Source: Lachnospiraceae bacterium
GTDB taxonomy: Bacteria; Bacillota; Clostridia; Lachnospirales; Lachnospiraceae
Length of the DNA: 64,000 bases
NCBI GenBank assembly: GCA_021772075.1
Contig: JAETNQ010000010.1
Coordinates: forward strand, 1 to 64,000
Direction of reading: 5' to 3'
The notes beneath the pieces were generated by a model. That model saw nothing but the letters and a program-made list of their open reading frames with translations. It made no database searches and was not told the origin of the DNA. Positions 31,849-52,369 of the stretch are shown in pieces. Within the stretch, counting starts at the first letter, position 1. Every line of letters begins with the position of its first letter. The position numbers were made by a program, and so were the translations under genes.

Positions 31849-32205
31849 TTATTTCTTCATCTTCGGGTTAAAAACCAGGCTTGCCAGATATCCGAATACC
31901 AATGCGGCGCATGTGCCGACCGCCCCTGCTTTGAACCCGCCCTGGAAGATCCCGATAAAGCCGGACTGATCCACCGCTTCCTTGACTCCCTTCATCAGGA
32001 CATTCCCAAATCCAAGCAGCGGTACCGAAGAACCGGCGCCCGCATATTCCTGGAACGGCTCATAAATGCCAAACACGCTTATAACCGCGCCGAGGCAGAC
32101 AAGCAGAACCATAATCCTTCCCGGCATCATTTTCGTCTTTTCCATCAGTACCTGCACAAGGGCGCAAATCAGCCCTCCTACCCAAAACGCATTCAAATAG
32201 TCCAT
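31849..32205 (-). CDS. spoVAE: Stage V sporulation protein AE
   Basis: A 118-residue membrane protein of the SpoVA channel for dipicolinic acid transport into the spore. Text such as YLNAFWVGGLICALVQVLME, GAGSSVPLLGFGNVLMKGV and FKAGAVGTCAALVFGYLASL is diagnostic of SpoVAE. The ATG at 32205 is chosen because AGGAGGTTTGC precedes it; an in-frame start at 32262 is open but lies over the promoter. In most relatives it follows spoVAD directly; here spoVAD is 4.7 kb upstream. Confidence 0.93.
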   Translation of the reverse strand: MDYLNAFWVGGLICALVQVLMEKTKMMPGRIMVLLVCLGAVISVFGIYEPFQEYAGAGSSVPLLGFGNVLMKGVKEAVDQSGFIGIFQGGFKAGAVGTCAALVFGYLASLVFNPKMKK

Positions 32206-32240
32206 GCAAACCTCCTGTATTCTTTCTAAGATCTTCATTC

Positions 32241-32270
32241 TATCATTCTTTTCGCATGACACTATTATGC
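32241..32270 (-). promoter_or_regulatory. Candidate sigma-G-like promoter for spoVAE
   Basis: Minus strand: GCATA (32270-32266) matches the sigma-G -35 box, and AATGATA (32247-32241) agrees with CATWMTA at 5 of 7 positions, with 18 bp between. It would let spoVAE be expressed in the forespore although separated from spoVAD. Confidence 0.4.
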
Positions 32271-32285
32271 CGTTCTTTTCACAAA

Positions 32286-33194
32286 TTATTCATTATTGTC
32301 TAATCCAAACAGACGCCCCTTCTTCTCCGGTAGCTGCACCCAAATTACTGCTGCAAATACAAGAATGCAGCCAAACAATTCCTTCACCGATAAAACCTGT
32401 CCCAATATGACCCATCCGGCCAGCACGGAAACAACGGATTCCAGACTGAGAATCAGGGAAGCCACCGTTGGTTCCAGGTTTTTCTGCCCTATAATCTGCA
32501 GCGTATACGCAACCCCGCAGGACATCACGCCCGCATACAGCAAAGGAACGATTCCGCCAAAAATCTGCTTCCAGGACGGCTCCTCCAAAATAAAAGCCCC
32601 CAGAATACAAATAATGCCCGCCGTATAAAACTGGATACAGGAAAGCGCTACTCCGTCGGTTTTCGGTGAAAAATAATCGATCACCAAAATATGTATGGAA
32701 AAAATAACGGCGCAAAGACAGACAAAAGCATCCCCCTTCCCGATAGAAAAGCTTTCGTTCATGCAAAGCAGATACATTCCCGCCACTGCCACCAGCGCTG
32801 CTTTCCAGACCTTCCCCGCTACTTTCCTCCGCAGAAATACTCCGCATACGGGAACGATAATAATATACAGCGTCGTAATAAACCCTGCTTTCCCCACCGT
32901 CGTGTACATAATGCCGATCTGCTGGCTTAAAGAAGCAAAACAAATGGCCAGCCCGCAGCAGATCCCGCCTTTCAGTGTAAGCGCCGCCGGAATCTCTTCC
33001 GGCGTATTTTTTTTCTTCTTTATCCTGATGCAGACGAGAGGCAGAAGCACCGTGCCTCCGATGAGAAACCGAACCCCGTTAAAAGTAAAAGGACCCATAT
33101 AATCCATGCCCACGCTCTGGGCCACAAAAGCCACGCCCCAAATAAAGGCAGCCAGAAATAACAGCAGACTGCTGCCGATCGCCATTTTTTTCAT
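32286..33194 (-). CDS. EamA/DMT-family drug/metabolite transporter
   Basis: A 302-residue protein with ten hydrophobic segments in two EamA repeats (SSLLLFLAAFIWGVAFVAQS at the start, LEPTVASLILSLESVVSVLA in the second repeat). The ATG overlaps the aroK stop in an ATGA. It is the last gene of a ridA-aroK-eamA operon; the link may be aromatic amino acid or intermediate export, but this is only a guess. Confidence 0.9.
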   Translation of the reverse strand: MKKMAIGSSLLLFLAAFIWGVAFVAQSVGMDYMGPFTFNGVRFLIGGTVLLPLVCIRIKKKKNTPEEIPAALTLKGGICCGLAICFASLSQQIGIMYTTVGKAGFITTLYIIIVPVCGVFLRRKVAGKVWKAALVAVAGMYLLCMNESFSIGKGDAFVCLCAVIFSIHILVIDYFSPKTDGVALSCIQFYTAGIICILGAFILEEPSWKQIFGGIVPLLYAGVMSCGVAYTLQIIGQKNLEPTVASLILSLESVVSVLAGWVILGQVLSVKELFGCILVFAAVIWVQLPEKKGRLFGLDNNE

Positions 33195-33712
33195 TGGTGC
33201 TGACCCTCCTGTTCCTGTCCGGCTGCCGCCGAAATAATCTCCGCAACAATATCCTTTATCATTTTATTTTCACAATCCATAACGATTTGGGCATATTTTT
33301 CATAATAAGGAATTCTTTCCTCATACAACTCCTTCAAAGTCTGCCCTTCCCGGACCGCCACTCCCCTTTCGCCCAGATCCCCGAGGCGTTCCTCTACCGT
33401 CGGATAGGAAAGCTTTAAATATACCAGCGTTCCGATCCTTCCCAAATGTTCCATAGCCTCTTTTCCATAAATCACGCTCCCTCCGGTAGCGATCACGCTC
33501 CGTTCCGCTTCCAGGGAAGCGTTGATCTCGTTTTCCAGCGCAAGGAACCCGGCCGTCCCCCGCTCTTCCATAATCTCATGCAGAAGCTTTCCCTCTTTTT
33601 CCTGAATCACAAGATCCGAATCCACAAAACGATAGCCAAGGCACTTTGCCAGCACTACCCCGACCGTACTTTTCCCAGCTCCCGGCATGCCGATCAATAC
33701 AATATTATTCAT
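33191..33712 (-). CDS. aroK: Shikimate kinase
   Basis: A 173-residue kinase that phosphorylates shikimate at position 3. Motifs: VLIGMPGAGKSTVG (Walker A), FVDSDLVIQEKEGK, GTAGFLALENE and ATGGSVIYG. The length is normal. Its ATG overlaps the ridA stop by 8 bases. No other aromatic synthesis gene is in the window. Confidence 0.95.
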   Translation of the reverse strand: MNNIVLIGMPGAGKSTVGVVLAKCLGYRFVDSDLVIQEKEGKLLHEIMEERGTAGFLALENEINASLEAERSVIATGGSVIYGKEAMEHLGRIGTLVYLKLSYPTVEERLGDLGERGVAVREGQTLKELYEERIPYYEKYAQIVMDCENKMIKDIVAEIISAAAGQEQEGQHQ

Positions 33713-34082
33713 GATATGCGGTCACTTCCACTTCACAGAGTACGTTTTTGGGAAGCTGTTTTACGGCCACGCAGCTTCTTGCCGGTTTCCCCGTGAAATA
33801 TTTTTCATAAACGCCGTTAAACGCCGCAAAATCATCCATATCTGCCAGGAAACACGTAGTTTTCACCACGTCGTCATAGCGATAGCCCGCTTCCTCCAGG
33901 ATCGCTCCCACGTTTTTCATTACCTGTTCCGCCTGTTCCAGAATATCCTCCCCTTTGATCCCGCCTGTCGCCGGATCGATCGGAATCTGACCCGAAGCAT
34001 ACAAAAACGGACCCGCGATAATCCCCTGGGAATACGGCCCGATCGCTGCCGGGGCTTTTTGTGTTGCTACTACTTTTCTCAT
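33705..34082 (-). CDS. ridA: RidA-family enamine/imine deaminase
   Basis: A 125-residue RidA that removes reactive enamines made by PLP enzymes. Motifs: AAIGPYSQGI, YASGQIPIDPATG, ARSCVAVKQLPKNVLCEVEV with the key Arg. The ATG at 34082 follows GGAGGAACCAGAC; an upstream in-frame ATG at 34112 is unlikely. It is coupled to aroK by an 8-base overlap. Confidence 0.94.
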   Translation of the reverse strand: MRKVVATQKAPAAIGPYSQGIIAGPFLYASGQIPIDPATGGIKGEDILEQAEQVMKNVGAILEEAGYRYDDVVKTTCFLADMDDFAAFNGVYEKYFTGKPARSCVAVKQLPKNVLCEVEVTAYHE

Positions 34083-34194
34083 GTCTGGTTCCTCCTTTTT
34101 TCTTTTTTCCAATTTGTCTTTGTGTACCTGGTGTATAAAAATTACTTACCAGTAAATATTTATTCTCTCCTGCAAACTTCAAGTTGCCACTGTA

Positions 34195-34866
34195 TTACCA
34201 AATATATGGGATTATTTTATATTTCACTTTCGTTTTATACGCAGCATATCCTTCCAATTCTTTTTCAAGCAATGCTTCTTCGTTCCTAATTCTCTTTGCA
34301 ATAATGATAGGATAGACAAGGAAAACAACAAAAGAGAAACCGGATCCCAGCACCAACGGCATAGAGAGAAACAAAATGATTGTCACACTATACATGGGGT
34401 GACGAACAATACCATATAATCCTGTATCAATCACCCTTTGTCCCTGCTGGATTTCTACAGTCCGCGATAAGTAAGTATTTTCTCTTAATACCTCCCCATA
34501 AAGCAAATAAGAAAATAAAAACATAACAGCCGCCATCCACGAAACCCAACCAGGTAACATAATCCATTCAAAGCGAAAGTTTAATCCTGCTACGGCAAAT
34601 CCCAAAACAAACATCAAACCACTAAGCTTTATTACAATATTTTGCTCCGTTTGCTGCTCTTTGGCATTTAAACGTTTTTTTAATAATTCTGGATTTTTGA
34701 ACATCATTACTATTCCCGCAAAAAGCATTGGAATAAACAAAATTCCTATGAACAACCATGCGTTCCAATAATGGAATGTGCCAGCAGGTAAAAATATTAG
34801 TATGCCTGTAACAGCTACACCGAGTATAAATTTCGATATTGCTTGAAAAACCAATTCTCTTATCAC
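34195..34866 (-). CDS. Isoprenylcysteine carboxyl methyltransferase-like membrane protein
   Basis: A 223-residue protein with five hydrophobic segments and the C-terminal motif GLYGIVRHPMYSVTIILFLS, then EEALLEKELEGYAAYKTKVK, typical of the ICMT/PEMT-type methyltransferases. The start is GTG at 34866 after a GA-rich site. The bases are AT-richer than those of its neighbours, and it sits in the spoVAD-spoVAE gap, which suggests it was acquired. The substrate is unknown; bacteria of this type lack prenylated proteins. Confidence 0.82.
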   Translation of the reverse strand: MIRELVFQAISKFILGVAVTGILIFLPAGTFHYWNAWLFIGILFIPMLFAGIVMMFKNPELLKKRLNAKEQQTEQNIVIKLSGLMFVLGFAVAGLNFRFEWIMLPGWVSWMAAVMFLFSYLLYGEVLRENTYLSRTVEIQQGQRVIDTGLYGIVRHPMYSVTIILFLSMPLVLGSGFSFVVFLVYPIIIAKRIRNEEALLEKELEGYAAYKTKVKYKIIPYIW

Positions 34867-34917
34867 CTTTCACCGCCTCTACATCTTCCAATTCGTCCAT
34901 ATCCCGCCCTTTGGGCG

Positions 34918-34960
34918 TTTCAAGTCGGATGCCCCGCTGCCTGCGGCGTGGTATTTGGCT
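34918..34960. repeat. Degenerate relative of the REP-like hairpin at 20805
   Basis: CAAGTCGGATGCCCCGC and GCGGCGTGGTATTTGGCT form an imperfect stem and resemble the CAAGTCAAATACCCC / GGGGTATTTGACT arms at 20805-20860. It overlaps the 3' end of the 88-residue gene and supplies that gene's last codons and stop. Confidence 0.4.
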
Positions 34961-35186
34961 CCTCGAACTCCGCTATGACATAAAATCCTCTTTCCTTTTC
35001 CACAACCTCCCTGACAATTCCCTCTCTTGCCAGCATCCGCTCGCGGAACGGGTAATTTCCGGACATGGCCAGCGCCGGGTCAATCGTATAATAATAATTG
35101 CTCGGAAGGACGCCCTCCGTTACCGTCACCCGGTCCCCCGCCTTCAAAAGTCCCGGCCTTTCCATCTTAAATTCCATTTCCCTCAT
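34920..35186 (-). CDS. Unrecognised 88-residue soluble protein
   Basis: A small hydrophilic protein (MREMEFKMERPGLLKAGDRV start, MLAREGIVREVVEKERGFYV later) with a beta-rich look and no known motif. GGAGG lies 6 bases before the ATG, which supports translation. The last dozen residues (NTTPQAAGHPT) come from the hairpin repeat, so the original C-terminus may have been altered. It precedes the methyltransferase-like gene by 53 bases on the same strand. Confidence 0.55.
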   Translation of the reverse strand: MREMEFKMERPGLLKAGDRVTVTEGVLPSNYYYTIDPALAMSGNYPFRERMLAREGIVREVVEKERGFYVIAEFEEPNTTPQAAGHPT

Positions 35187-35433
35187 AATAATCCTCCATA
35201 CCGCGTCCGCAAATCCTACCGCACTTTATTTTACTAGGACTTTCCACTTTTTTCAATAGATTTCTGCCCGGCAGGCCAGGGGCTGGCAGAAGGGGAGGGG
35301 CGGCGGGCGGCCTGATAAAATGATAAAATGAATTTCCCTGCAGCCCCTTGCTCCTTGACAAAGCGGAAATAAATCCATTAGAATATTTTTTATACAAGTA
35401 ACAACGGTTTTCATACATATGGAGGATTTTTTT

Positions 35434-36861
35434 ATGGCAATTTACAAATGCGCCGTATGCGGCGCTATCTTTGACGAAGAAAAAGAAGGAAAAAAATTTT
35501 CGGAGCTGGACTGCTGCCCGGTCTGTAAACAGCCGGTTTCCAAATTTGAAAAGATTGCGGACGAATCTCCGAAAGAAGCAGAAACGGATCCTCTCCTTTC
35601 CGGAAAAGATTCCCCGCAGGGAGAACTCTCTTATGATCCCCTGTACATACGGCATGACAAAGGCAGCCGTTATATGGAAGAGATCCACGAAATAGCCGTA
35701 ACGGGAAAGAGCATTGACGGAGCGATGGGGACGAAAATGCCTATGCCGGGCTGGGACGATATCCTCTTCCTTGGCGCGCAGTTAAACCCCGCTCCTCTGC
35801 TTGACTCAGATCCTGTCAGTACGCGGACCGTCATCGGAAAGCACGCGCAAAAGCCTATGGTGCTGGAAAACCCCGTCTATATTTCCCATATGTCCTTCGG
35901 CGCGCTTTCACGGGAAATCAAAATCGCTCTGGCCCAAGGCAGCGCCATGGCTAAAACCGCTATGTGCAGCGGGGAAGGCGGCATCCTTCCAGAAGAAAAG
36001 AAAGCGGCATATAAGTATATTTTTGAATATATTCCGAACAAATACAGCGTGACGGATGAAAATCTGAAGTCTTCGGACGCTATCGAAATCAAGATCGGGC
36101 AAGGCACAAAGCCCGGCATGGGTGGACACCTTCCTGGAGAAAAAGTAACTCCCGAAATCGCCGCGCTCCGCGGAAAAAATCCGGGCGAGGATATTCAAAG
36201 CCCCAGCCGGTTTGAAGAGATCCGTTCCAAAGAGGATTTGAAAAAAACGGTGGATACGCTCCGCCAGCTTTCCGGCGGCCGGCCCATCGGCATCAAAATA
36301 GCGGCCGGACGGATTGAACGCGACCTGGAATACTGTGTCTATGCAGAACCCGACTTTATTACGATCGACGGGCGCGGAGGCGCTACTGGTTCCAGTCCGC
36401 TCCTGCTCCGGGAATCTACTTCTGTTCCGACCATTTTTGCCTTACACCGGGCAAGAAAATACCTGGACTCCGTCCATTCGGACATTTCCCTTGTAATCAC
36501 GGGAGGACTCAGGGTATCTTCCGATTTTGCCAAGGCTCTTGCCATGGGCGCGGATGCCGTTGCTATCGCCAGCGCCGGACTCATTGCGGCAGCCTGCCAG
36601 CAATACCGGATCTGCGGAACCGGAAACTGCCCTGTAGGAATCGCTACGCAGAAACCGGAACTCCGGGCGCGGCTTAAGGTAGAGGCTGCGGCTCAAAGAG
36701 TCGCTAATTTCCTCAATGTCTCCTTGGAAGAATTAAAAATGTTTGCCAGAACCACCGGCCACTCTTCGGTACATGACTTGAACGTCAGCGACCTCGTCAC
36801 ATTGAACAGGGATATCGCGGAGTATACGAACATCCCCCACGCCGGAATGAGCAGGAATTAA
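35434..36861 (+). CDS. Rubredoxin-like domain fused to a glutamate-synthase FMN domain
   Basis: A 475-residue protein. The N-terminus has a rubredoxin-like metal site (Cys6-x2-Cys9 and Cys27/28-x2-Cys31). The rest is the FMN-binding, TIM-barrel domain of the glutamate synthase large subunit (NPVYISHMSFGALS, MCSGEGG, IGQGTKPGMGGHLP, GRGGATGSSP, and the cluster-binding Cys in CGTGNCPVGIATQ). The glutaminase and C-terminal GltB domains are missing. It probably transfers electrons to an unknown acceptor rather than making glutamate from glutamine. GGAGGA precedes the ATG at 35434. Its end overlaps the end of spoVAD by 4 bases, tail to tail. Confidence 0.92.
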   Translation: MAIYKCAVCGAIFDEEKEGKKFSELDCCPVCKQPVSKFEKIADESPKEAETDPLLSGKDSPQGELSYDPLYIRHDKGSRYMEEIHEIAVTGKSIDGAMGTKMPMPGWDDILFLGAQLNPAPLLDSDPVSTRTVIGKHAQKPMVLENPVYISHMSFGALSREIKIALAQGSAMAKTAMCSGEGGILPEEKKAAYKYIFEYIPNKYSVTDENLKSSDAIEIKIGQGTKPGMGGHLPGEKVTPEIAALRGKNPGEDIQSPSRFEEIRSKEDLKKTVDTLRQLSGGRPIGIKIAAGRIERDLEYCVYAEPDFITIDGRGGATGSSPLLLRESTSVPTIFALHRARKYLDSVHSDISLVITGGLRVSSDFAKALAMGADAVAIASAGLIAAACQQYRICGTGNCPVGIATQKPELRARLKVEAAAQRVANFLNVSLEELKMFARTTGHSSVHDLNVSDLVTLNRDIAEYTNIPHAGMSRN

Positions 36862-37898
36862 CGGCAGCTTTCGATGACTAACCCGTGGGCGATCCCCGGC
36901 ACGCTCTGCCCTTCGTTAAAGCTTGTCTTGCTCAACAGCGCCCCTGTCGGCACAAAGAGGACTCTTTTCCATACGCCCTCTTCTATCTTTTTTAAAATAT
37001 AGGCCGACAGGGTGACAGCGCTGCACCCGCACCCGCTTCCCCCTGCATGGGTATCCTGTTCCTTTGCATCATAGATCTCAATCCCGCAATCCATATGCTG
37101 TCCTGCGATATCCACATCTTTTTCATTCAGGAGATCGATCAGCGCCTGCTGCCCTATGCTCCCTAAATCCCCGGTAATAATCTTATCATAATCGGAAGGC
37201 TTTCTTCCAAAGTCCTTTAAGTTCCAATAAATCGTATCGCAAGCCGCCGGAGCCATACATGCCCCCATATTCATGGAATCTTTCAGACCGTAGTCCATAA
37301 TTTTCCCCGTCGTCAATCCGGTGATCCTGGCCCTGGATCTCTTCCCCTCCGTACTGCTTAAGACGAAGGCTCCGCTGCCCGTCACCGTCCAGGAAGCGGA
37401 CAAAGGCCTTTGGTTCCCGTAGCCGAGCGGAAAACGGAATTCCTTTTCCGCGCTGGCAAAATGGCTGGACGTTACGCAAACCACATGTTCCGCGTAACCG
37501 CCGTTCACCGCCATCGCCCCCATGCTCAACGAAAGGCCGCAAGTAGAACAGGCTCCATACAACCCAATGAGGGGAATCTCATAACCCGCAAGCCCGAAAC
37601 TGCTGGCGATGGACTGCCCCAGCAAGTCTCCGGCAAACAAATAACGGATATCCTCTTTTTTTAACCCTGCCTTCCCCAAGGCGAGATAAACGGCATCCTT
37701 TTGCAGACTGCTTTCCGCCTCTTCCCAGGAAGCACAGCCAAACATATCGTCCTGGCCGACCATATCAAAAAGCTCCGCCAGAGGCCCCTGCCCCTCTTTC
37801 GTCCCTACCACGCTGGCGCTCTCCCTGATATAAACGGGGTTTTTCAATTCTATGCTTTGCTTTCCCAATATACATGTTTCTTTTTTTTCCTGGCTCAT
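36858..37898 (-). CDS. spoVAD: Stage V sporulation protein AD
   Basis: A 346-residue protein with a thiolase-like fold that binds dipicolinic acid on the SpoVA channel. Motifs: YIRESASVVGTKEGQGPL, LYGACSTCGLSLSMGAMAV, NMGACMAPAACDTI, GDLGSIGQQAL and HAGGSGCGCSAV. The ATG at 37898 fits the family start; an in-frame GTG at 37907 is nearer the GGAAGGAG site and remains possible. It is isolated: spoVAC lies 5.4 kb upstream and spoVAE 4.7 kb downstream, all on the same strand. Confidence 0.95.
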   Translation of the reverse strand: MSQEKKETCILGKQSIELKNPVYIRESASVVGTKEGQGPLAELFDMVGQDDMFGCASWEEAESSLQKDAVYLALGKAGLKKEDIRYLFAGDLLGQSIASSFGLAGYEIPLIGLYGACSTCGLSLSMGAMAVNGGYAEHVVCVTSSHFASAEKEFRFPLGYGNQRPLSASWTVTGSGAFVLSSTEGKRSRARITGLTTGKIMDYGLKDSMNMGACMAPAACDTIYWNLKDFGRKPSDYDKIITGDLGSIGQQALIDLLNEKDVDIAGQHMDCGIEIYDAKEQDTHAGGSGCGCSAVTLSAYILKKIEEGVWKRVLFVPTGALLSKTSFNEGQSVPGIAHGLVIESCR

Positions 37899-37977
37899 AC
37901 TATACACAGCTCCTTCCTGTCGCTTTCGAAGTTCCTCTCACATTGTGTATCACATTGTGTATAGTATTGCCGCTTCC

Positions 37978-39135
37978 TTACCGCTCAATTCCATGTTCCA
38001 GCAAAAACTGCTTCCATATCTCGTAATATTTCGCCTTTAGATGCACTTCGTCTATGGTATACTCCGCATTCAGATTTCCGTCCGCATCGCATACCGCCTC
38101 ATTGACATCGATATAAAAAATATTCCGGTTATCCGCAAGACTTGCGATAGCCGCATTTTTTGCCTCAATATTTTTATTATTAAAGATCGGGTCTTCCGCA
38201 TCTTTGCCTGCCGTCACTTTCATGATTCCTTCCACAAAAATAACCGCATCCGGCTGCAGTTCCCGGATCCGTTCTACTACCGCCTTATACTCTTCCAAGA
38301 ATGTTTCCGTCGTCCCTGTTCCCAGTTCGTTGATCCCCAGCATTAAATAGACCTTGCCATACTGCTTCTGCGACAATGCCTCCTCCGCCGTGATCTTTTT
38401 TCCCGTTCCCTCTTCCTTTGCCAGCGGCTCGGAAAATACATTATATATCGTCAGGGATATTTTTGCGTAAAAATCCGCCCGTTCCTCCAATCCCCCGTAC
38501 TCGAACAAGCCTACCGTCCTGGAATCACCGATAAACGCCGCATCGTTAAAATAATCTTCCGTCACTGTCTGGAATTCATAAGTTTTTTCCGCTTCCGATT
38601 CCGTGCCGCCGGATATATCCCCGCTGGCAGATTCGCTTCTTATTTGGGAATCCATCTCTCCCTCCGCTTCGCCGCTCCCGGAACCGGAATCCCCGTCCGC
38701 CGCCGTGTCTTCTGCCAAAACGTCCTCTTCAAGAGTTCCTTTTCCGAAATCTGCCGCTTCCTCCATCTCCTCCACAGAAACGCCAGCTTCTGCTTCTTCC
38801 TCTTCCGTGCCGGAAGGAACGGAAAAGATTTCCTTGGCATCCTCCCCTCCCAGATCATCAATATTCTGCCCTCCGCCTTCCGTCCGGAATACGGCAAGCA
38901 GCCGGCCCGGGAATTCATCGGCTCCCATTCCCACATTCTCCGCCATCTCCCAAGGAGCCGTTCCCTTTCCCGCCCCTTCCATCACAAGGGCAAGGAACGG
39001 CCTCTTCACCGGATCAAATTCGTAATCTTTATATATGGAAAATCTGCCGACCGCTCCGGTCAATGCAAGCACAAGGCCGCTTACCGCCAAAAGCAGGAAA
39101 ACCGGACATTTCTTTATAAATTTTATTATTCTCAT
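37978..39135 (-). CDS. Membrane-anchored SGNH/GDSL hydrolase-like protein
   Basis: A 385-residue protein. An N-terminal helix (about 10-30) anchors it. A long Glu/Ser/Gly-rich linker (about 95-185) follows, then an SGNH domain: FIGDSRTVGLFEY (nucleophile Ser block), LMLGINELGTGT (Asn block) and IDEVHLKAKYY (Asp/His block). It stands 34 bases downstream of an MBOAT acyltransferase; such pairs add or remove acyl groups on cell-surface polysaccharides. It lies just upstream of spoVAD on the same strand. The target polymer is unknown. Confidence 0.83.
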   Translation of the reverse strand: MRIIKFIKKCPVFLLLAVSGLVLALTGAVGRFSIYKDYEFDPVKRPFLALVMEGAGKGTAPWEMAENVGMGADEFPGRLLAVFRTEGGGQNIDDLGGEDAKEIFSVPSGTEEEEAEAGVSVEEMEEAADFGKGTLEEDVLAEDTAADGDSGSGSGEAEGEMDSQIRSESASGDISGGTESEAEKTYEFQTVTEDYFNDAAFIGDSRTVGLFEYGGLEERADFYAKISLTIYNVFSEPLAKEEGTGKKITAEEALSQKQYGKVYLMLGINELGTGTTETFLEEYKAVVERIRELQPDAVIFVEGIMKVTAGKDAEDPIFNNKNIEAKNAAIASLADNRNIFYIDVNEAVCDADGNLNAEYTIDEVHLKAKYYEIWKQFLLEHGIER

Positions 39136-39169
39136 AGCTGCACTCGCTTTATCTCAGATCAAAATCAAC

Positions 39170-40534
39170 TTAAAATTTCAAATAAGCAAAAGGATTGCTT
39201 TCCATGCTTACCAAGCAATAAACAGAAAGCCAGAAAACCGCCGCTGTCAGCAAGACCACCAGCGGATGCCTTCTATGTTTTTGCAGAAAACGCGAAACAA
39301 ACGGGATACACCAAAGCACCCCCAGAAGCAGATAATGCCAATACATCCCCAGATACTTCCATATATCGTTAGGGTTGACGGCGATCCCTCCTCCCGCAAA
39401 AGGAAACAGCCGCTCCAGGTACAAGCCAAGCTGGCCCAGATCGGTCAATGCAAAAAACACCCATGTCACCGGTATCAGGATCAAGGTATAGCACCGCCCC
39501 AGCAGGGAAAATCTGGCAAACAGTTTTCCAAGCCCGATCTTCTCGACCGCGATCAGCAAAAATAATGCCAGGCCCCAAAGCAGGAAGTTCACGCTCCCTC
39601 CATGCCATAGCCCCGTTAAAACCCACACCGCCAGAAGGTTTCTGAGCGTCTCTATCCTTCCTCCCCGGCTTCCGCCCAGCGGGATATAAACGTAATCCCT
39701 GAAAAAACTGCCAAGCGTTATATGCCACCGCCTCCAAAACTCGCTGATGCTTTTGGAGGCATAAGGATGTTCAAAATTTTTAATAAACGGGAAGCCGAGC
39801 ATCACGCAAATGCCCGATGCCATAAGGGAATACCCCCAAAAATCAAAATACAGCTCCATGGAATAGGCAGCCGCCCCCAGCCAGGCTAACGGGGTAGAGA
39901 TGCTTTCATAGCCTATCATATGAATATCTTTCCATAAAATTGCCAGTCTGTCCGCCAGCAGCACTTTCGTCCCAAGGCCGGCCGCAAAATATTGCAGCCC
40001 TTCCTCCAGTTTTTCCCAGGAATACTCCCTCTCTTCCATGAGAAAGCTTCCCTCGTTAAAACGCATGATCGGGCCGGATACGATCTGGGGAAACATCGTA
40101 AAATAAACTGCCGTCCTTTTAAAAGTCGGCAGCTCTTTTATTTCTCCCCGAAACACATCTGCCTGAAAGGATATCATTTTAAAAATGTAAAAACTCAGCC
40201 CAAGGGGAAGTATGCTGCTCCCTGCAAAAGCACCCAGCGCCTTAAAGAGCGCCAGCAGGCCGGTATCCAGAACAAGAACCGTAATAAGGCGGTCTTTCCG
40301 GCATTTTTTTCCTCTGCGGGTATTCCGGCAGGAATGTATTTTTTTTGCAAAAAAGTAATTCAGCCATACCATGACAAGAAGAAGCAGCACATAGTACGGC
40401 TCCCCCATGGCATAAAATACAATGCTGCCAAGCAGCAGCGCAGTATTTCTGTATTTTTTTGGCGTTATATAATAAACGGCGAGAAACGCCGGAAAAAAGC
40501 GGAAAAGAAACTCCAAACCGGTAAACGATACCAT
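39170..40534 (-). CDS. MBOAT-family O-acyltransferase (AlgI/DltB type)
   Basis: A 454-residue membrane enzyme with about ten helices. Motifs: FPQIVSGPIMRFNE near residue 170, KSISEFWRRWHITLGSFFRD and the catalytic His in TGLWHGGSVNFLLWG. The ATG at 40534 matches the usual MV-x-F-LEFLF start; an in-frame GTG at 40564 is also open. With the SGNH protein it forms a surface acylation pair that transfers acyl groups across the membrane. No dltA, alginate or other polysaccharide genes are nearby. Confidence 0.9.
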   Translation of the reverse strand: MVSFTGLEFLFRFFPAFLAVYYITPKKYRNTALLLGSIVFYAMGEPYYVLLLLVMVWLNYFFAKKIHSCRNTRRGKKCRKDRLITVLVLDTGLLALFKALGAFAGSSILPLGLSFYIFKMISFQADVFRGEIKELPTFKRTAVYFTMFPQIVSGPIMRFNEGSFLMEEREYSWEKLEEGLQYFAAGLGTKVLLADRLAILWKDIHMIGYESISTPLAWLGAAAYSMELYFDFWGYSLMASGICVMLGFPFIKNFEHPYASKSISEFWRRWHITLGSFFRDYVYIPLGGSRGGRIETLRNLLAVWVLTGLWHGGSVNFLLWGLALFLLIAVEKIGLGKLFARFSLLGRCYTLILIPVTWVFFALTDLGQLGLYLERLFPFAGGGIAVNPNDIWKYLGMYWHYLLLGVLWCIPFVSRFLQKHRRHPLVVLLTAAVFWLSVYCLVSMESNPFAYLKF

Positions 40535-40620
40535 CCTCGACCAATCCTTTTCATTTGTAATCACTTCATTATTATTCTACCATTCTATTTCCTGAATCTC
40601 AATAGAAGAAATAGATTATC

Positions 40621-41015
40621 TGTGGGAATCCATTTTACCAGGCCGCAAACGGATCAGGGCAGGAAAGAAAGAGGGGGCGGCAGGGGCAGGCAGGGCGGGC
40701 AGCAAGGAAAGCAGGGCGGAAAGGGGGTACCATGCCAGCTTCTGGAAATGGATTTTCTAAATATTCCGATATCATTGTATCAACAGGCCGCAACCGTCTG
40801 CGATTCGCCATCCAGGCTCATTGCAGACTTTTGGTGACATCCATGTCACCAAATTGCTATTTGTCAGACGGAATATTAAGAAAATCTCATTTCCCTGCGC
40901 AAAGGCAGCGACACCCCCTTTCCGCCCCGCTTTCCTTGCTGCCCGCCCTCCCCTGCCGCCCCCTTCTACTTTCCTGCCCCGACTTGTCCCTGGCCTGGTA
41001 AAATGGATTCCCACA
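40621..41015. repeat. 395-bp long imperfect palindrome with perfect 24-bp ends
   Basis: The outer 24 bases at 40621-40644 are an exact inverted copy of 40992-41015. Inward, G-rich text (GGGGGCGGCAGGGG, GCAAGGAAAGC) is mirrored by C-rich text on the right arm with small differences. Near the centre lies a separate perfect dyad (TTTGGTGACAT / ATGTCACCAAA, 40830-40853). It fills most of a 660-base gap between the MBOAT gene and the XRE gene. No reading frame with a ribosome site is present. It behaves like a MITE or a large RNA hairpin. Confidence 0.85.
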
Positions 41016-41194
41016 GGCATTACTTTATGGCATTTTCCATATCCTTATTTTCCCTTTTCTTTTAACTTACATATATCTGTTCCTGTAAAATATTTATATA
41101 CATTTTTTCGTTGTTATTCTGTGCAAAATGCAAATTCCTGTGATATTATTTCCACATTGAATGACACAACGAACAGAAGTAAGGAGGAATTGCA

Positions 41195-41557
41195 TTGACA
41201 AACGTTCATGTTAAGATCAAAAATCTAAGAGAAGAAAGCCACCTCAAACAAAGACAGGTCGCAGACTATCTCGGCATATCCCAGCAGGCTTATTCCTACT
41301 ACGAACTGGATAAACGGGAACTTCCTTCCAGGCATGTAGTAAATCTGGCCAAACTGTACAACGTAAGCACCGACTATATCCTCGGAATGGAGCCGGAACG
41401 CGCCGGTTCCTACGACCTGAACGCTACCTTTGTCCAGGGAGTCCAACTGAAGGATGTTCTCATCAGCCTGAGAAAGCTCAACAAATCGGGGAAAGCGGAT
41501 TTGATGAAATACTTATCCTATCTGGGTTCCGCCCAGGCAAACGGAACGAATATTTAA
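41195..41557 (+). CDS. XRE-family helix-turn-helix regulator
   Basis: A 120-residue regulator: N-terminal XRE HTH (IKNLREESHLKQRQVADYLG, ISQQAYSYYELDKRELP) and a C-terminal helical part of about 50 residues. The start is TTG at 41195, 6-7 bases after AAGGAGG. Its stop overlaps the convergent GNAT stop by 4 bases. Target genes are unknown; the nearby palindrome is a possible site. Confidence 0.88.
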   Translation: MTNVHVKIKNLREESHLKQRQVADYLGISQQAYSYYELDKRELPSRHVVNLAKLYNVSTDYILGMEPERAGSYDLNATFVQGVQLKDVLISLRKLNKSGKADLMKYLSYLGSAQANGTNI

Positions 41558-43129: not shown

Positions 43130-43333
43130 CTACAATAATCTACCAATAGCAAAGATAAGTTTAAGAGAAATTTCCATGATTACCAACCGCATTTCCCAGC
43201 CCGCCACCCTGGCAAAAATCTGTTCCTGCATATTTTTACTGATCCACCTGAAAAGCCCCATGGATATCGCCAAAGCAAATATCCGCGGGGCAATCACGCA
43301 TACATAACCCGACGCAATTCCTCTTTCTAACAT
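43130..43333 (-). CDS. Possible small membrane protein overlapping spoVAC end
   Basis: An open frame of 67 codons begins with an ATG that overlaps the last bases of spoVAC. It reads MLERGIASGYVCVIAPRIFA and is hydrophobic with charged ends. The ribosome site is weak (AGGA only two bases away). It could be a real, coupled small protein or chance; I do not recognise it. Confidence 0.3.
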   Translation of the reverse strand: MLERGIASGYVCVIAPRIFALAISMGLFRWISKNMQEQIFARVAGWEMRLVIMEISLKLIFAIGRLL

Positions 43334-43785
43334 ATTCCTAACAGTTTCAATATCCAATACCCAAGCCCCAGCACCCAGCTGGTAAAAATCCCATACAAAA
43401 TCACCGGCCCCGCGATCGTAAAAATCTTACACCCGATCCCGAACACCTGTCCCTCTTTCTTAAACTCAATGGCCGGCGCGGCTACGGAATTGGCAAAGCC
43501 CGTAATCGGCACGAGCGCCCCCGCTCCTCCGAATTTCACGATAGAAGGATAAATATTGAAGCCGGTCAACAAAATGCTGACCAATATCAGCAGCAGGGAA
43601 CACCAGCTTCCCGCCGTCTCCTTATCCAGACCTATCGTATTCGTACAGTAATTCAATATCAACTGCCCGATCACGCATATCACGCCCCCGACAAAAAATG
43701 CCTTTGCCATCTGAAGCCATAAGTTATGCGTCGGCGTAACCTCCTTGACATATTCCTGATATTCCTGTTTTACCTGTTCGTCCAT
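43327..43785 (-). CDS. spoVAC: Stage V sporulation protein AC
   Basis: A 152-residue membrane subunit of the SpoVA channel, the mechanosensitive component in Bacillus. Text: YVKEVTPTHNLWLQMAKAFF, VGGVICVIGQLILNY, FGGAGALVPITGFANSVAAP and GPVILYGIFTSWVLGLGYWI. ATG 43785 is preferred because GAGG lies 6 bases upstream; ATG 43797 is in frame and just before. It follows spoVAB by about 145 bases, and spoVAD is missing from its usual place next to it. Confidence 0.94.
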   Translation of the reverse strand: MDEQVKQEYQEYVKEVTPTHNLWLQMAKAFFVGGVICVIGQLILNYCTNTIGLDKETAGSWCSLLLILVSILLTGFNIYPSIVKFGGAGALVPITGFANSVAAPAIEFKKEGQVFGIGCKIFTIAGPVILYGIFTSWVLGLGYWILKLLGIC

Positions 43786-43931
43786 ATCCAACCTCATTTC
43801 CGGCTTGATGCCTTTGTTCCCCTGTCATTTTTGTCTGCAGACTTTTCTGCAAAAGTTAGTATCTGAATACCGCCGCCAAATTATTCCCCAATTCCCATTG
43901 ATAAAATTTTTAAAAATTTCGTTTATGGCTC

Positions 43932-44429
43932 CTACACCCCGCCATGCAGATATACCGCCTTCGCGAAATAAAGGAGGCTTCCCGCCGCTTTCCCCAAAGC
44001 CATTGCCAGCACGGCAATGCCAAGCCCATGCCGGAATCCGACCCTTCTGGAAAAAATAGGGATCGTATCCAGCATTTCCGCAATAGCAAGAGCCAGGCAC
44101 CCGACAAAAATCCCGGCAAACAGCCCGAATATCATAAGCACGACCATCCCCAGAACACGCCATGCCGCCTCCGTATTTCCTCCAAACACCTGGTTTTCTA
44201 TCACCAGCTTCCCGATATGCCCATACCTGTCGAACACACTGAAAAAATCCCCGAACAACGTGCCGCATACCACCGCTTCCTCAAACAAAAAAACCTTCCG
44301 GCTCACATGCATTTTTCCCGCGAACCGCGGAATCAGCCCCACCGATATCAACACCGTAAAAACGCCTCCCGCCGCAAACATCCCGAAGCTCATGCCCACG
44401 ATCCCCAAAAATATCTGCCTAAGAAACAT
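43932..44429 (-). CDS. spoVAB: Stage V sporulation protein AB
   Basis: A 165-residue membrane protein. Text such as GMSFGMFAAGGVFTVLISVG, LIPRFAGKMHVSRKVFLFEE and CLALAIAEMLDTIPIFSRRV is typical of SpoVAB. The ATG overlaps the spoVAA stop by 11 bases, so translation is coupled. It is a component of the SpoVA system, less widely kept in Clostridia than AC, AD and AE. Confidence 0.92.
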   Translation of the reverse strand: MFLRQIFLGIVGMSFGMFAAGGVFTVLISVGLIPRFAGKMHVSRKVFLFEEAVVCGTLFGDFFSVFDRYGHIGKLVIENQVFGGNTEAAWRVLGMVVLMIFGLFAGIFVGCLALAIAEMLDTIPIFSRRVGFRHGLGIAVLAMALGKAAGSLLYFAKAVYLHGGV

Positions 44430-45048: not shown

Positions 45049-45109
45049 TGATCCGCTCCTTTTCGATCCATTTACCGGCTCCGCACCCGCGCCGATTATC
45101 CATACCCCT

Positions 45110-45138
45110 TATTATGGCAGGAAATCTTTCATTTATAC
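45110..45138 (-). promoter_or_regulatory. Candidate sigma-G promoter of spoVAA-AB-AC
   Basis: On the minus strand GTATA (45138-45134) resembles the -35 GMATR, and CATAATA (45116-45110) is a perfect -10 CATWMTA, with 17 bp between. The mRNA would start about 55 bases before spoVAA. The left end of the XRE cassette stops just 10 bases upstream of the -35. Confidence 0.5.
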
Positions 45139-45253
45139 GCCATTTTAGAAAATCCAGCGGGAATCCATTTTCCAATGCTCATGCGCGATAAAGTAACACA
45201 AAGATTTTGATAGGCAGCCACCCGCTATTCCGTGCAACTTATAAGAAAAATTT

Positions 45254-45322
45254 TTGTAAAGGAACCTTGTCAAAACCGGCTTATTCTACTATAATGGAAT
45301 TGTAAAGGAACCTTGTCAAAAC
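45254..45322 (+). promoter_or_regulatory. Promoter with two identical operators for the XRE gene
   Basis: TTGTAAAGGAACCTTGTCAA occurs at 45254 and again at 45300 (46 bases apart); each is a near palindrome around GGAACC. The first copy contains the -35 TTGTCA (45267-45272), with TATAAT at 45290-45295 after 17 bp. The second ends right at the ribosome site GGAGG. This is a textbook layout for autorepression. Confidence 0.6.
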
Positions 45323-45336
45323 GGAGGTGACATTAT

Positions 45337-45552
45337 TTGGAAAACAGGGTTGAAGAATTAAGGAAAAGATTAGGCATGAATCAAGAAGATTTTGCAAAAG
45401 CACTTAAAGTTTCAAGGCAAACCGTCAGTTCAATAGAAACGGGGAAATATAATCCCTCTTTAGAATTAGCTTTTGCAATATCAGATTTTTTCGGTAAACA
45501 AATTGAAGAAATTTTTATTCATGAAAGGAGTTGCAAAGATGAAAAAATGTAA
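45337..45552 (+). CDS. Small XRE-family repressor
   Basis: A 71-residue HTH protein (LRKRLGMNQEDFAKALKVSR, QTVSSIETGKYNPSLELAFA) of the short Cro/SdpR-like type. The start is TTG, 9 bases after GGAGG. It overlaps the next gene by 14 bases. It probably represses its own promoter through the paired operators and so controls the membrane protein. Confidence 0.88.
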   Translation: MENRVEELRKRLGMNQEDFAKALKVSRQTVSSIETGKYNPSLELAFAISDFFGKQIEEIFIHERSCKDEKM

Positions 45553-45985
45553 TTTATTAGAGGGTATTTTATTTATTTTGGGAGGCATTATTCTTTTGGG
45601 TGCAGCACTGCTAACGGATAGTGTGCTGGACAGTTTGCTTATCGGTTTTGCTGCCGGAGCCATTTGTTCTGGTACTGTTATGACTTGTAAATACTTTTAT
45701 TGGAATACATCTAAAAACAAAGAACGGTATCAAGAAAAAATAGAAAATGAAAAAATCGAACTTCACGATGAATTAAAATCAAAATTAAGAGATAAATCCG
45801 GGTGCTATGCGTATACTATCGGGCTTATGACAGTTAGTATTTCAATAATCATCTTCTCCATATTGGGACAACTTGAAGTCATTGATAATTCACGCTTAAT
45901 AGTGCTATATCTGGGCGGCTATTTAATTTTTCAAATTGTAATAGGTATCGTAATATTTAAACAGTTATTAAAAAAGTATGAATAG
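45539..45985 (+). CDS. Small multi-spanning membrane protein paired with the XRE repressor
   Basis: A 148-residue protein with four hydrophobic segments (LEGILFILGGIILLGAALL, LLIGFAAGAICSGTVM, and two near the C-terminus) around a charged middle of about 35 residues. AAAGGAG lies 8 bases before the ATG. XRE-plus-membrane-protein pairs are common in Firmicutes, but the role is unknown. The sequence is AT-rich compared with its surroundings. Confidence 0.8.
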   Translation: MKKCNLLEGILFILGGIILLGAALLTDSVLDSLLIGFAAGAICSGTVMTCKYFYWNTSKNKERYQEKIENEKIELHDELKSKLRDKSGCYAYTIGLMTVSISIIIFSILGQLEVIDNSRLIVLYLGGYLIFQIVIGIVIFKQLLKKYE

Positions 45986-46138
45986 CAAAACCAGTCGAGC
46001 CAGTCACCGGCAGGATGAACGGGCTTCGCCGGCAAGGTAGAATTGCCCGACTAAAGCCCGACCTGTCCGGCAGTCAGCCCGGACGAACGGCGCGCCCTGC
46101 CCTTTGGAATATGGATTCCCGCTGGATTTTCATCCATC

Positions 46139-46384: not shown

Positions 46385-46419
46385 TATATAACAGCCGCCC
46401 GCCCTATGGAATATGGTTT

Positions 46420-49721
<3,302 letters not shown>

Positions 49722-49842
49722 TTTTTCCGCTTTGCTCCTTTTATTATGTATTCAGGTTATTCAAGGGATGCCTGTAAACCCTTCCTCCTGCTTCTTGCCC
49801 GCTGCCCTCCTTCCTGCCTTGTCTATTCTAATCACAGCACCT

Positions 49843-50685
49843 TTAAGACGTCGTTTTATAAATCACTCGTTCAATGTGTATTGTCAGGTACAGCTTTTCT
49901 TCATCGGACAAGGAATAATTATATTTTTTGCCAAGAAAATCCCCGATGTTTTCCACGCAGCTGTAAGCGTTCTGGTATTGGCTCTTTACCATTTCCAGCA
50001 GCTGGCGGTCCGACTCATCCCGGTATGTGGTGCCTCCTATCAGCCGTTTCGCGAAAAATTTCAAATGAGTAATAAACCTGTAATAATAGACGCTGTCCTC
50101 ATCAAACTCCACGTTAAACTTATACTTTACAATATTGACCAGTTCCTGCATCACTTTGGTAATCTGGTAGATATTCTGCATATTTTCTTCATCCATAGCG
50201 GCATTTGCCAGATGCAGCGCAATAAATCCTGCCTCGTCCTCAGGGAGCCTTATCTGAAAACGCTTTTCAATCATATCCAGCGCTGTCATCCCAATGGCAA
50301 ACTGATCCGGGTAAAACCTCCTCGTTTCCCAAAGCAATGCATTTTTCACTGTAATGCCTTCCAAATAACGCGCAATCGCCGTATGCACATGGTCTACCAG
50401 GCTGATATATATCATGTCGTTTAATTTTTTTCCGGTCTTGGTTTTTGCATAGGAAATAATTTCCTCGCCGATCTCGATGTGCGGAATCGGTATATCGACA
50501 ATTAATTCCTGGAATTTATGCGCCGCCCTCTGGTTCGACAGCGTAAAAACCTTATCGACCAGCTTTTCATCCAATTCCTCCCCCGGCTTCTTCCGAAAAG
50601 CCAATCCACGCCCCATAATGATTTTTTCAATACCGTTTTCCTTCACGATTACTACGTTGTTGTTCAAAATTTTCCCGATAACCAT
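49843..50685 (-). CDS. licT: LicT/BglG-family transcription antiterminator
   Basis: A 280-residue protein: N-terminal RNA-binding CAT domain (KILNNNVVIVKENG, MGRGLAFRKKPGE) and two PRD domains with conserved His (DHVHTAIARYLEG; LHLANAAM; HIERVIY). The ATG at 50685 is preferred; AAAGGA is upstream. It binds a leader RNA to stop the terminator at 50717-50776 from forming when beta-glucosides are present. A possible promoter lies at 50850-50822 (TTGACT, 17 bp, TAAAAC). Confidence 0.95.
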   Translation of the reverse strand: MVIGKILNNNVVIVKENGIEKIIMGRGLAFRKKPGEELDEKLVDKVFTLSNQRAAHKFQELIVDIPIPHIEIGEEIISYAKTKTGKKLNDMIYISLVDHVHTAIARYLEGITVKNALLWETRRFYPDQFAIGMTALDMIEKRFQIRLPEDEAGFIALHLANAAMDEENMQNIYQITKVMQELVNIVKYKFNVEFDEDSVYYYRFITHLKFFAKRLIGGTTYRDESDRQLLEMVKSQYQNAYSCVENIGDFLGKKYNYSLSDEEKLYLTIHIERVIYKTTS

Positions 50686-50716
50686 CGTTTTTCCTTTGCC
50701 AGAATCCCTTCCTGAA

Positions 50717-50805
50717 AACAAAAAAACCTACATACCACAGACAGAAAACTAGTTTCTGTCAACAGCATGTAGGTTTAGCTTGCCATTTGCAATCACTATC
50801 GCTAC
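50717..50805 (-). promoter_or_regulatory. Antiterminator/terminator leader of the bgl operon
   Basis: On the minus strand a stem with arms AACCTACAT (50775-50767) and ATGTAGGTT (50733-50725), an inner stem GACAGAAACTAG / CTAGTTTTCTGTC-like, and then a run of T is a rho-independent terminator. The bases just before it (about 50805-50770, ending GGCAAGCTAAACCTA) resemble the RAT element recognised by LicT and overlap the first arm. The licT coding region follows. Confidence 0.6.
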
Positions 50806-50878
50806 TATATTTTATAAAACCGTTTTATCATATGAACGGAAAAAAGTCAAGATTTTTTTCCATTTGAAACCATATTTT

Positions 50879-51595
50879 TTACTGCAGTTTCTCCCTCATC
50901 CGTATCAATATTTTTTTCTCCATCCTGCTCACCTGCACCTGGCTGATGCCGAGATTCTTCGCCACCTCCACCTGGGTCTTGTCCTGAAAATAACGAAGCC
51001 GGATGAGCGTCCGTTCTTCTTCTCCCAGCTCCCCGATCAGCTGTTCCAGCAGCATATGGTTTAAAAGTTTTTCATTATCGTCCTTTTTTTCCGGCAGCTT
51101 GTCCACCAGATAAATTTCATTGCCATCAGACTGGTAGACGGATTTATAAATGGATTCCACTTCCACATTGGCCTCCATCGCCATGATAATATCTTCCCTG
51201 GCTATCCCCGTCGCCTCCGCGATCTCTTCCAGCGTGGCGTCCCTCCCGCTCTCATGGTAGATCTGCTCTGCCGCCTGTCTGACCTTCCATCCGTTTTCCT
51301 TTAAGGTCCTGCTCACCTTGACGATTCCGTCATCCCGCAAAAAACGTTTGATTTCGCCGCTTATCATTGGTACTGCATAGGTGGAGAATTTGACATCATA
51401 TGCCAGGTCGAACTTATCGATCGCTTTCATCAGCCCTATCGCTCCGATCTGGAACAAATCCTCCGCATCATACCCTCTTCCCAGGAAGCGCCTGACGATA
51501 TGATGCACCAGACCAAGGTTTTTTTCTATCAGCGCCTCCCGCGCCGCTTTATCCCCTGCCTGTGAACGAGCAATCAGTACCGCAACATCCTCCAT
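50879..51595 (-). CDS. sigF: Forespore sigma factor sigma-F
   Basis: A 238-residue sigma-70 family factor. Region 2 (LVHHIVRRFLGRGYDAEDLF, GLMKAIDKFD), region 3 and region 4 HTH (TQVEVAKNLGISQVQVSRME) are intact. It starts 3 bases after spoIIAB. SpoIIAB holds it inactive until the forespore forms. In the usual order spoVA genes follow; here a bgl operon and a cassette intervene. Confidence 0.97.
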   Translation of the reverse strand: MEDVAVLIARSQAGDKAAREALIEKNLGLVHHIVRRFLGRGYDAEDLFQIGAIGLMKAIDKFDLAYDVKFSTYAVPMISGEIKRFLRDDGIVKVSRTLKENGWKVRQAAEQIYHESGRDATLEEIAEATGIAREDIIMAMEANVEVESIYKSVYQSDGNEIYLVDKLPEKKDDNEKLLNHMLLEQLIGELGEEERTLIRLRYFQDKTQVEVAKNLGISQVQVSRMEKKILIRMREKLQ

Positions 51596-51598
51596 AAT

Positions 51599-52045
51599 CT
51601 ATTCCTCATCCTCTATCCATGGAATGCATCCTATTTTTTTCTTCATGATGACCGTCGTCCCCTCTCCTGCTACGGACAGCACTTCCAGATCATCCATGAA
51701 CGCTTCCATGAAAGGGAAACCCATCCCCGAACGGTTCAGTTCCGGTTTCGTCGTAAAGAGCGGTTCCATCGCCTTCTCAATATCCTCTATGCCGTTTCCC
51801 TTGTCCATCACTTCCACGTGCAGCACGTCCTGCTCTATGAGGCAGCGTATATTTACCTTTCCCCCTTCTATCCCGTCGTATCCGTGGATGATCGCATTCG
51901 TCACCGCTTCCGACACCGCCGTCTTAATATCCGAAACTTCCTCCAGCGTAGGATCCAGCTCGGACACAAAAGCCGCCACCGCTACCCTGGCAAATGCCTC
52001 GTTTGCCGATATAGCGTCGAACTCCATCTTCATTTCGTTTTTCAT
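51599..52045 (-). CDS. spoIIAB: Anti-sigma-F factor and kinase
   Basis: A 148-residue GHKL-fold kinase. N box ([15 protein letters not shown]), G1 ([12 protein letters not shown]) and [14 protein letters not shown] are present. It binds sigma-F and phosphorylates SpoIIAA. GGAGGA precedes the ATG, 15 bases after spoIIAA. Confidence 0.97.
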
Positions 52046-52060
52046 CCCAGTCCTCCCTGT

Positions 52061-52369
52061 TTATTCCATAATTTCCACAATTTTATGTAATCCCGATATC
52101 ATTAAGAGATGCCTGATCCGGTTATCCGCATTGATCGCGAATACTTTTCCCCCAAAGCAGGAAATCTTCTTATACCTCCCAAGAATAATCCCGATTCCCG
52201 AGCTGTCCATAAATTTCGTATCTTCAAAATCGAAGACCACATGGTCCACCTTTTCCTGAACAATAAACTTGTCCGCGTTTTCGCTTATGTATGATGACTT
52301 ATGATGATCGATCTCTTCCGGCATCCTGACCATCAGGTAATTATCGATCACCTTAAAATTTTCCATCAT
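52061..52369 (-). CDS. spoIIAA: Anti-anti-sigma factor
   Basis: A 102-residue STAS-domain protein with the phosphorylated Ser in FMDSSGIGIILGRYK (Ser57). Dephosphorylated, it frees sigma-F from SpoIIAB. AAAGGAG is 6 bases before the ATG. Upstream at 52442-52436 (minus strand) AGGAATT fits a sigma-H -35 box, though the -10 is weak. Confidence 0.96.
   Translation of the reverse strand: MMENFKVIDNYLMVRMPEEIDHHKSSYISENADKFIVQEKVDHVVFDFEDTKFMDSSGIGIILGRYKKISCFGGKVFAINADNRIRHLLMISGLHKIVEIME

Follow-up and report, generated by a model that had tools for sequence, protein, structure and literature searches.

In a 64,000-nucleotide stretch of a Lachnospiraceae genome (contig JAETNQ010000010.1, hereafter the window), the sporulation genes spoIIAA, spoIIAB, sigF, spoVAA, spoVAB, spoVAC, spoVAD and spoVAE were found on the minus strand and in the classical order, scattered in four blocks across 20.5 kb (52369 down to 31849). 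We consider it likely that this layout resulted from the stepwise break-up of a compact row by insertion, with function most likely kept via own sigma-G promoters of the separated spoVA genes. According to this proposal, the compact spoIIA-spoVA row would have been opened step by step by unrelated genes, between and not within its members, with order and strand remaining unchanged within the genus. Two old breaks would have come first, later inserts would have arrived as cassettes within the genus, and the forespore (sigma-G) promoters of the separated spoVA genes would most likely keep the function, since co-regulation by a promoter per gene would be independent of one transcript.

The four blocks corresponded to spoIIAA-spoIIAB-sigF (52369-50879), spoVAA-spoVAB-spoVAC (45048-43327), spoVAD (37907-36858) and spoVAE (32262-31849). 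In terms of gene layout the first block is a spoIIA operon, with its three genes contiguous and on one strand; on the contrary, the spoVA genes did not form a compact operon, being distributed over three blocks with 5.4 and 4.6 kb between them. All eight reading frames were open, including those of the SpoVAC, SpoVAD and SpoVAE set. The positions, strand and order of the eight genes given in the first-pass annotation were thus confirmed by open reading frame (ORF) positions and profile matches, and its impression that the spo proteins look intact by the open frames. The SpoVAD score in the corresponding TIGR model was a little below the curated cut-off, as for SpoVAC, and a whole-genome search with PF03862 (SpoVAC/AE family) recovered the spoVAC and spoVAE places and no third one. 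The start of spoVAE is probably the ATG near 32211 instead of the GTG at 32262, because AGGAGG precedes that ATG; a sigma-G-like site (32263-32291) abuts the GTG. Other spore genes present in the host genome (3.48 Mb, 99.95% complete) were those for SASP and SpoIVA; for dipicolinate synthase subunit A a relative was found, with 156.8 bits against a family cut-off of 319.65. The open frames, the separate sigma-G-like sites and the SASP and SpoIVA genes suggest that sporulation function has been kept and that the organism may sporulate.

Compact ancestry and age of the breaks

The compact spoIIA-spoVA row is ancestral and the dispersed layout is derived. Among 20 fetched outgroup genomes of the order, spoVAC and spoVAD were adjacent in all 20, and spoVAD and spoVAE in 17. 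A hand tally revealed spoVAC and spoVAE within 2.2 kb in 35 of 43 genomes from other families of the order and on different contigs in the remaining 8, and, in a draw from the family, within 2 kb in 23 of 60 genomes, farther apart on the same contig in 13 and on different contigs in 24, the different-contig class being inflated by contig breaks in both tallies. Stretches were fetched for 33 of the 60 family and 20 of the 43 order genomes having both genes, selected for longer contigs, and the order set includes one (G157) of the eight genomes with spoVAC and spoVAE on different contigs. In eight of the 33 family rows the fetched stretch did not include spoVAD; these rows stayed outside the tree and the spoVAD counts, so that splits are undercounted. 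From at least 419 relatives the 80 best were taken as named loci, which therefore lean toward near kin; six of them were left out of the promoter and tree counts, four as the same contigs as genus genomes (L003-L006, corresponding to G108, G104, G100 and G113) and two as assumed near copies (L009 and L031).

A quick SpoVAD tree of 135 rows (LG+G4, with 42 of its 131 inner branches open and several branches long) required at least eight changes of state for the spoVAC-spoVAD junction and five for the spoVAD-spoVAE junction, the latter once locus L046, mis-assigned because its spoVAE match is spoVAC, was removed (six before). Change counts alone have no direction, which is given here by the compact outgroups. 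We read these data as indicating that dispersal arose more than once. The compact ancestral state assumed in the first-pass annotation is therefore sustained by the outgroups, and synteny revealed that the dispersed layout is not common to all close and distant relatives.

Two of the breaks are old and reach beyond the genus. The first one, between spoVAD and spoVAE, is occupied by a small conserved gene, o88, followed by ridA-aroK-eamA. In this block, o88 adjoined ridA in 13 of 13 testable genus rows and in 41 of 46 testable named loci, with eamA or aroK absent in some rows; it was the sole interposed block in a 9.6-kb contig (L074) carrying spoIIAA to spoVAE plus DegV. The second one, between spoVAC and spoVAD, holds an MBOAT-SGNH gene pair. 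The MBOAT-SGNH and SGNH-spoVAD adjacencies were observed in 14 of 16 genus rows, in 20 and 18 of 74 named loci, respectively, and in none of the 25 family or 20 order rows, short stretches being scored as no in this neighbour census. The idea that all gap genes are recent was rejected on the basis of these two blocks, since their conservation makes them part of the layout common to close relatives.

On the other hand, the bgl operon, the Fic-GNAT genes, a glutamate-synthase-domain (GltS-domain) gene, a methyltransferase gene, a cassette of an XRE-type regulator with a membrane-protein-like gene (XRE-membrane cassette) and a palindromic repeat carrying the TwoAYGGAY RNA motif are young. The sister genome G102 was collinear with the window and lacked bgl, the methyltransferase, the XRE-membrane cassette and the TwoAYGGAY element; its empty sites contained between 40 and 348 other bases (78 unrelated bases for TwoAYGGAY), and the junctions were not clean. 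Neither G102 nor G114 had the last three of these features at the collinear places, which most likely dates their gain to after the G102 split; the methyltransferase and membrane-protein-like genes were observed at this place in the window only. The GltS-domain gene was found at the corresponding place in the window, G102 and G103, and Fic and GNAT in the window and G102; the XRE gene of the same insert was additionally present in G114 and G103, the G103 contig ending before Fic would appear. The bgl operon was located behind sigF in the window and in one of 15 genus relatives (G114), and it was absent from G102, G108 and G112, among others, and from the sequence following sigF in G104 (2.3 kb) and G105 (2.6 kb), G103 giving no reading. 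No clean target-site duplication was seen at the insert junctions. Inverted repeats were found for two inserts; at the ends of two others, bgl and the methyltransferase, there were just 8-10-base matches. Of the earlier proposals, repeated insertion was borne out by the several inserts absent at collinear sites of G102; the gaps do not all consist of recent foreign blocks, as the two old blocks are conserved in relatives outside the genus.

The dispersed layout might simply be ancestral for this branch, with nothing special in this genome. The rows of a 91-row subclade classed for the spoVAD-spoVAE junction were all split, the mis-assigned L046 aside, and both MBOAT-SGNH and o88-ridA-aroK-eamA are widely common to relatives. 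This explanation holds for those two breaks; as a full account it is refuted by the young inserts, as each of bgl, the XRE-membrane cassette, TwoAYGGAY, the methyltransferase, Fic-GNAT and the GltS-domain gene was seen in the window and in no more than two close relatives, and it also has the compact outgroups against it, so we regard it as unlikely. Rearrangement would mean that transposition, inversion and rejoining separated the spo genes and that their conserved order is a coincidence. Altered arrangements do occur in relatives: spoVAC is inverted or spoVAA-spoVAB lies downstream of spoVAD in L011, L019, L028 and other family members, and spoVAC is reversed in G014. Within the genus, however, one strand and one order were observed in all measured members (the span was measurable in 6 of 15 relatives, with spoVAE on another contig in 7 and no match in 2), over spoIIAB-spoVAE spans of 9.6 kb in G107, 13.8 kb in G102, 20.2 kb in the window, 24 kb in G114, 32 kb in G100 (Kineothrix alysoides, same contig as L005) and G101, and 42.6 kb in G110. 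Since the window and G102 were, in addition, otherwise collinear across the insert sites, rearrangement is disfavoured here and appears highly improbable.

The spo genes could also be an insertion hotspot at which accessory and defence cassettes preferentially land, as might be expected from the slot between spoVAC and MBOAT, which holds Fic-GNAT-XRE in the window and HD-CE plus STAND-NTPase genes beside XRE in G114. Alignment of the window with G102 (5510 to 60831, 55 kb) revealed nine insertions larger than 400 bp, four inside the 20.5-kb spo stretch (31849-52369) and five in the other 34.8 kb (at 17.1-18.4, 20.8-21.6, 29.5-30.2, 30.8-31.8 and 58.6-59.4 kb). The spo stretch is not singled out for insertion, as the rest of the aligned window shows a similar density; a spo locus clearly more insertion-prone than its surroundings was discarded on this comparison with one sister genome over 55 kb, and we consider a hotspot very unlikely. 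Stepwise break-up by insertion is retained as the preferred explanation.

Sigma-G-like sites of the separated spoVA genes

A sigma-G-like matrix derived from 26 training sites upstream of spoVAA, chosen with a consensus, was run on both strands of the window, with a 95% shuffle threshold of 10.1. The three best sites of the window were those upstream of spoVAA, spoVAE and spoVAC (Table 1), so that sigma-G-like -35/-10 elements were strong ahead of these three genes and weak ahead of spoVAD. The spoVAA site of the window belongs to the training set, and the independent cases are therefore spoVAC, spoVAD and spoVAE. Across relatives, sites at or above the 95% threshold were detected upstream of spoVAD in 57 of 95 split rows and in none of 35 adjacent ones (19 and 0 at the 99% level), and upstream of spoVAE in 23 of 53 split and none of 40 adjacent rows (12 and 0). 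Rank tests of split vs adjacent rows gave 2e-13 for spoVAD and 9e-11 for spoVAE, both values ignoring relatedness. In 14 genus stretches, 21 of the 45 sites above 99% were located ahead of spo genes (spoIIAA 3, spoVAA 6, spoVAC 6, spoVAD 3 and spoVAE 3), 15 of them ahead of genes other than spoVAA.

The possibility that the passenger genes had joined the forespore regulon was also considered. No site above 99% was found ahead of o88 (0 of 59), ridA (0 of 57), aroK (0 of 45), eamA (0 of 35), MBOAT (0 of 36) or SGNH (0 of 34), and this possibility was rejected at that level, although these genes may have weaker or other promoters.

Several observations weigh against a break-up compensated by separate promoters. 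Upstream of spoVAC, sites at or above the 95% threshold were found in 21 of 43 split rows and also in 7 of 55 rows with spoVAC adjacent to spoVAB, and the window itself has spoVAC adjacent to spoVAB and yet a score of 18.0. The independent pairs on supported branches were four for spoVAD and three for spoVAE and were not significant; the site tracked the split in about 2.3 of the four spoVAD pairs and in none of the three spoVAE pairs, and never the reverse. Adjacent genes are preceded by coding sequence, and this may in itself lower their score; rows without spoVAC or spoVAE but with more than 1.5 kb of room were scored as split. The spoVAD site of the window is weak (10.4), and the SASP gene, used as a positive control, scored just 11.7. 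Genome-wide, the exact motif with a 17-base spacer occurred 27 times and its reversed control 21 times; two of the motif occurrences precede spoVAA and spoVAE. Strong sites had no spo gene behind them in 24 of the 45 cases from the genus stretches, the control genes spoIIAB and sigF had sites above 99% in 1 of 42 and 1 of 43 rows, and spoVAA had them in just 7 of its 34 split and 5 of its 11 adjacent rows. Regarding the insertion history, one gain plus several losses of bgl fits equally well as two gains. Taking these points together with the distribution of sites, the sequences may represent real sigma-G promoters from which the genes would be expressed together, and separate forespore promoters would then hold the regulon together.

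Genes and repeats in the gaps

Table 1. Features of the spo stretch in the window
Feature	Position	Strand	Evidence
spoIIAA	52061..52369	-	TIGR02886 102 bits, below curated cut-off 114.75; superfamily TIGR00377 above cut-off
spoIIAB	51599..52045	-	TIGR01925 208 bits
sigF	50879..51595	-	PRK05572 326 bits, above cut-off; TIGR02885 318 bits, just below cut-off 321.45
bgl operon insert: licT antiterminator, phosphotransferase system (PTS) IIABC, 6-phospho-beta-glucosidase	46420..50721	-	Family matches
orf81, small conserved gene adjoining spoVAA	46139..46384	-	Conservation; no Pfam or NCBIfam match
XRE-type regulator + membrane-protein-like cassette, 28-nt inverted repeats, 96% complementary	45148..46131		Repeat search
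Sigma-G-like site of spoVAA, GTATA-N17-CATAATA	45110..45138	-	Score 20.7, best in window; training site
spoVAA	44419..45048	-	PF12164 96 bits
spoVAB	43932..44429	-	PF13782 110 bits
Sigma-G-like site upstream of spoVAC	43855..43888	-	Score 18.0, third in window
spoVAC	43327..43797	-	PF03862 151 bits; TIGR02838 159 bits, below cut-off 164
Fic (-), GNAT (-), XRE (+) insert	41195..43070	mixed	Family matches
Palindromic repeat with TwoAYGGAY RNA core, 40736-40902 (-)	40620..41016		Rfam, 116.9 bits
MBOAT O-acyltransferase + SGNH/GDSL pair, old insert between spoVAC and spoVAD	37978..40564	-	Family matches
Weak sigma-G-like site upstream of spoVAD	37960..37993	-	Score 10.4, just above 95% threshold
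spoVAD	36858..37907	-	PF07451 479.6 bits
Glutamate-synthase-domain gene, rubredoxin-like N-terminus (by eye), convergent insert	35419..36861	+	Pfam
o88, conserved small gene	34920..35186	-	Conservation; no Pfam match
ICMT/PEMT-like methyltransferase, young insert	34195..34866	-	Family match
ridA-aroK-eamA, old spoVAE neighbours	32286..34112	-	Family matches
Sigma-G-like site of spoVAE, GAATA-N17-CATAATA	32263..32291	-	Score 20.5, second in window; not a training site
spoVAE	31849..32262	-	PF03862 124 bits; ORF from GTG, likely true start ATG near 32211

Family matches supported the names previously given to the bgl, Fic, GNAT, two XRE, MBOAT, SGNH, ridA, aroK, eamA and methyltransferase-like genes. 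The proposed rubredoxin-GltS fusion was supported in part: Pfam detected the glutamate-synthase domain plus weaker oxidoreductase matches and nothing else, and the rubredoxin part was recognised by visual inspection of CxxC pairs alone. This plus-strand gene overlaps the end of spoVAD by 4 bp. The first-pass annotation had overlooked orf81, o88 and the TwoAYGGAY-bearing repeat. In seven of the eight genus relatives covering the region, G106 being the exception, orf81 was found between sigF and spoVAA, and it also lay behind sigF in G108 and G112. Both o88 and orf81 are small conserved genes that stay with the spo row. MBOAT and SGNH are a possible O-acetyltransferase pair kept beside spoVAD, also in some other genera.

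Ten ORFs from the gaps of relatives were scanned for insert content. The inserts of G100 comprised transport genes of the FtsX and HlyD types together with a multidomain redox protein, and those of G110 trpE- and trpD-type genes, a LacI regulator and a sugar-binding protein. HD-CE and STAND-NTPase genes were identified in G114, and one scanned ORF had no family match. The HD-CE and STAND-NTPase/metallophosphatase genes in the spoVAC-MBOAT slot of G114 (L102, 3935-10063) are possibly a defence cassette. Elsewhere in the window (17171-21563), an AAA/DUF4143 ATPase and a MazEF-like pair, both absent in G102, stand beside arg-type genes. The former constitutes the 17.1-18.4 kb insertion, flanked by genes for a class-III aminotransferase and an amino-acid kinase that are argD- and argB-like by place and family, and the latter the 20.8-21.6 kb insertion, between an ArgJ gene and a GNAT gene.

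The palindromic repeat (roughly 350-470 bp) had at least 27 other matches in the genome with E <1e-20 among the 33 listed, 40 of 70 first-look candidates having been scored. All 20 fetched copies (L186-L205) matched RF01731, and inverted arms were present in 20 of 21 copies, including that of the window; two copies were short, at contig ends. In the 18 copies of the 21 used for arm comparison, the two arms of one copy were 96.3% complementary, arms of different copies were 83.9% alike, and none of 153 between-copy pairs reached the within-copy median, as if the arms were selected as a hairpin or homogenised. The repeat may be a miniature inverted-repeat transposable element (MITE)-like mobile RNA element; the TwoAYGGAY motif is listed as a probable RNA and not as cis-regulatory (Weinberg and others 2010, PMC2864571). 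In the XRE-membrane cassette, the XRE-type regulator (45337-45552, plus strand) gave an HTH_3 match of 65.3 bits, and the membrane-protein-like ORF (45473-45985, plus strand) had no Pfam or NCBIfam match. The tip of the cassette repeat, GGGAATCCATTTT, resembles that of the TwoAYGGAY element, and the cassette abuts the spoVAA promoter-like site.

Relation to known operons and meaning

The spoIIA (spoIIAA-spoIIAB-sigF) and spoVA operons of Bacillus subtilis have the same gene order and strand as described here. The genes are the same, whereas in the window unrelated genes divide them into four blocks covering 20.5 kb; B. subtilis was also the sole control genome matching the SpoVAC/AE and SpoVAD searches. 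The operon life-cycle idea of Price and others from 2006 reportedly holds that operons are broken up by insertion and their genes acquire new promoters. The present case is alike in that an ancestral operon was split by inserts and its members have separate promoter-like sites, and it differs in offering a graded series in one genus and a developmentally timed gene row. In Clostridioides difficile, spoVAC-spoVAD-spoVAE are described as one operon under sigma-G forespore control, with a mapped sigma-G promoter ahead of spoVAC (PMC3789822). The window is similar in having a sigma-G-type site ahead of spoVAC, predicted here from sequence, and different in having separate blocks with separate sigma-G-like sites instead of one operon. 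Among the matches listed in a literature search, no report of dispersed spoVA genes in Lachnospiraceae was found.

A wider reading is that the spoVA operon of Lachnospiraceae has been dismantled repeatedly and independently, harmlessly by virtue of per-gene sigma-G promoters, turning an operon into a separately switched regulon. In line with it, spoVAC and spoVAE were more than 2 kb apart or on different contigs in 37 of 60 family genomes (13 plus 24) vs 8 of 43 from other families of the order. This proposal is tentative, and we give it somewhat less than an even chance. The inserts are ordinary genes, and it is the promoter pattern that merits testing. As spoIIA and spoVA are textbook spore-formation operons, a single genus in which the row extends from 9.6 to 42.6 kb with kept order and forespore-type sites allows a direct test of what timed development needs an operon for, and the same series allows asking whether promoters precede or follow the break. 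Furthermore, surveys relying on operon neighbourhood may overlook spoVA genes in Lachnospiraceae.

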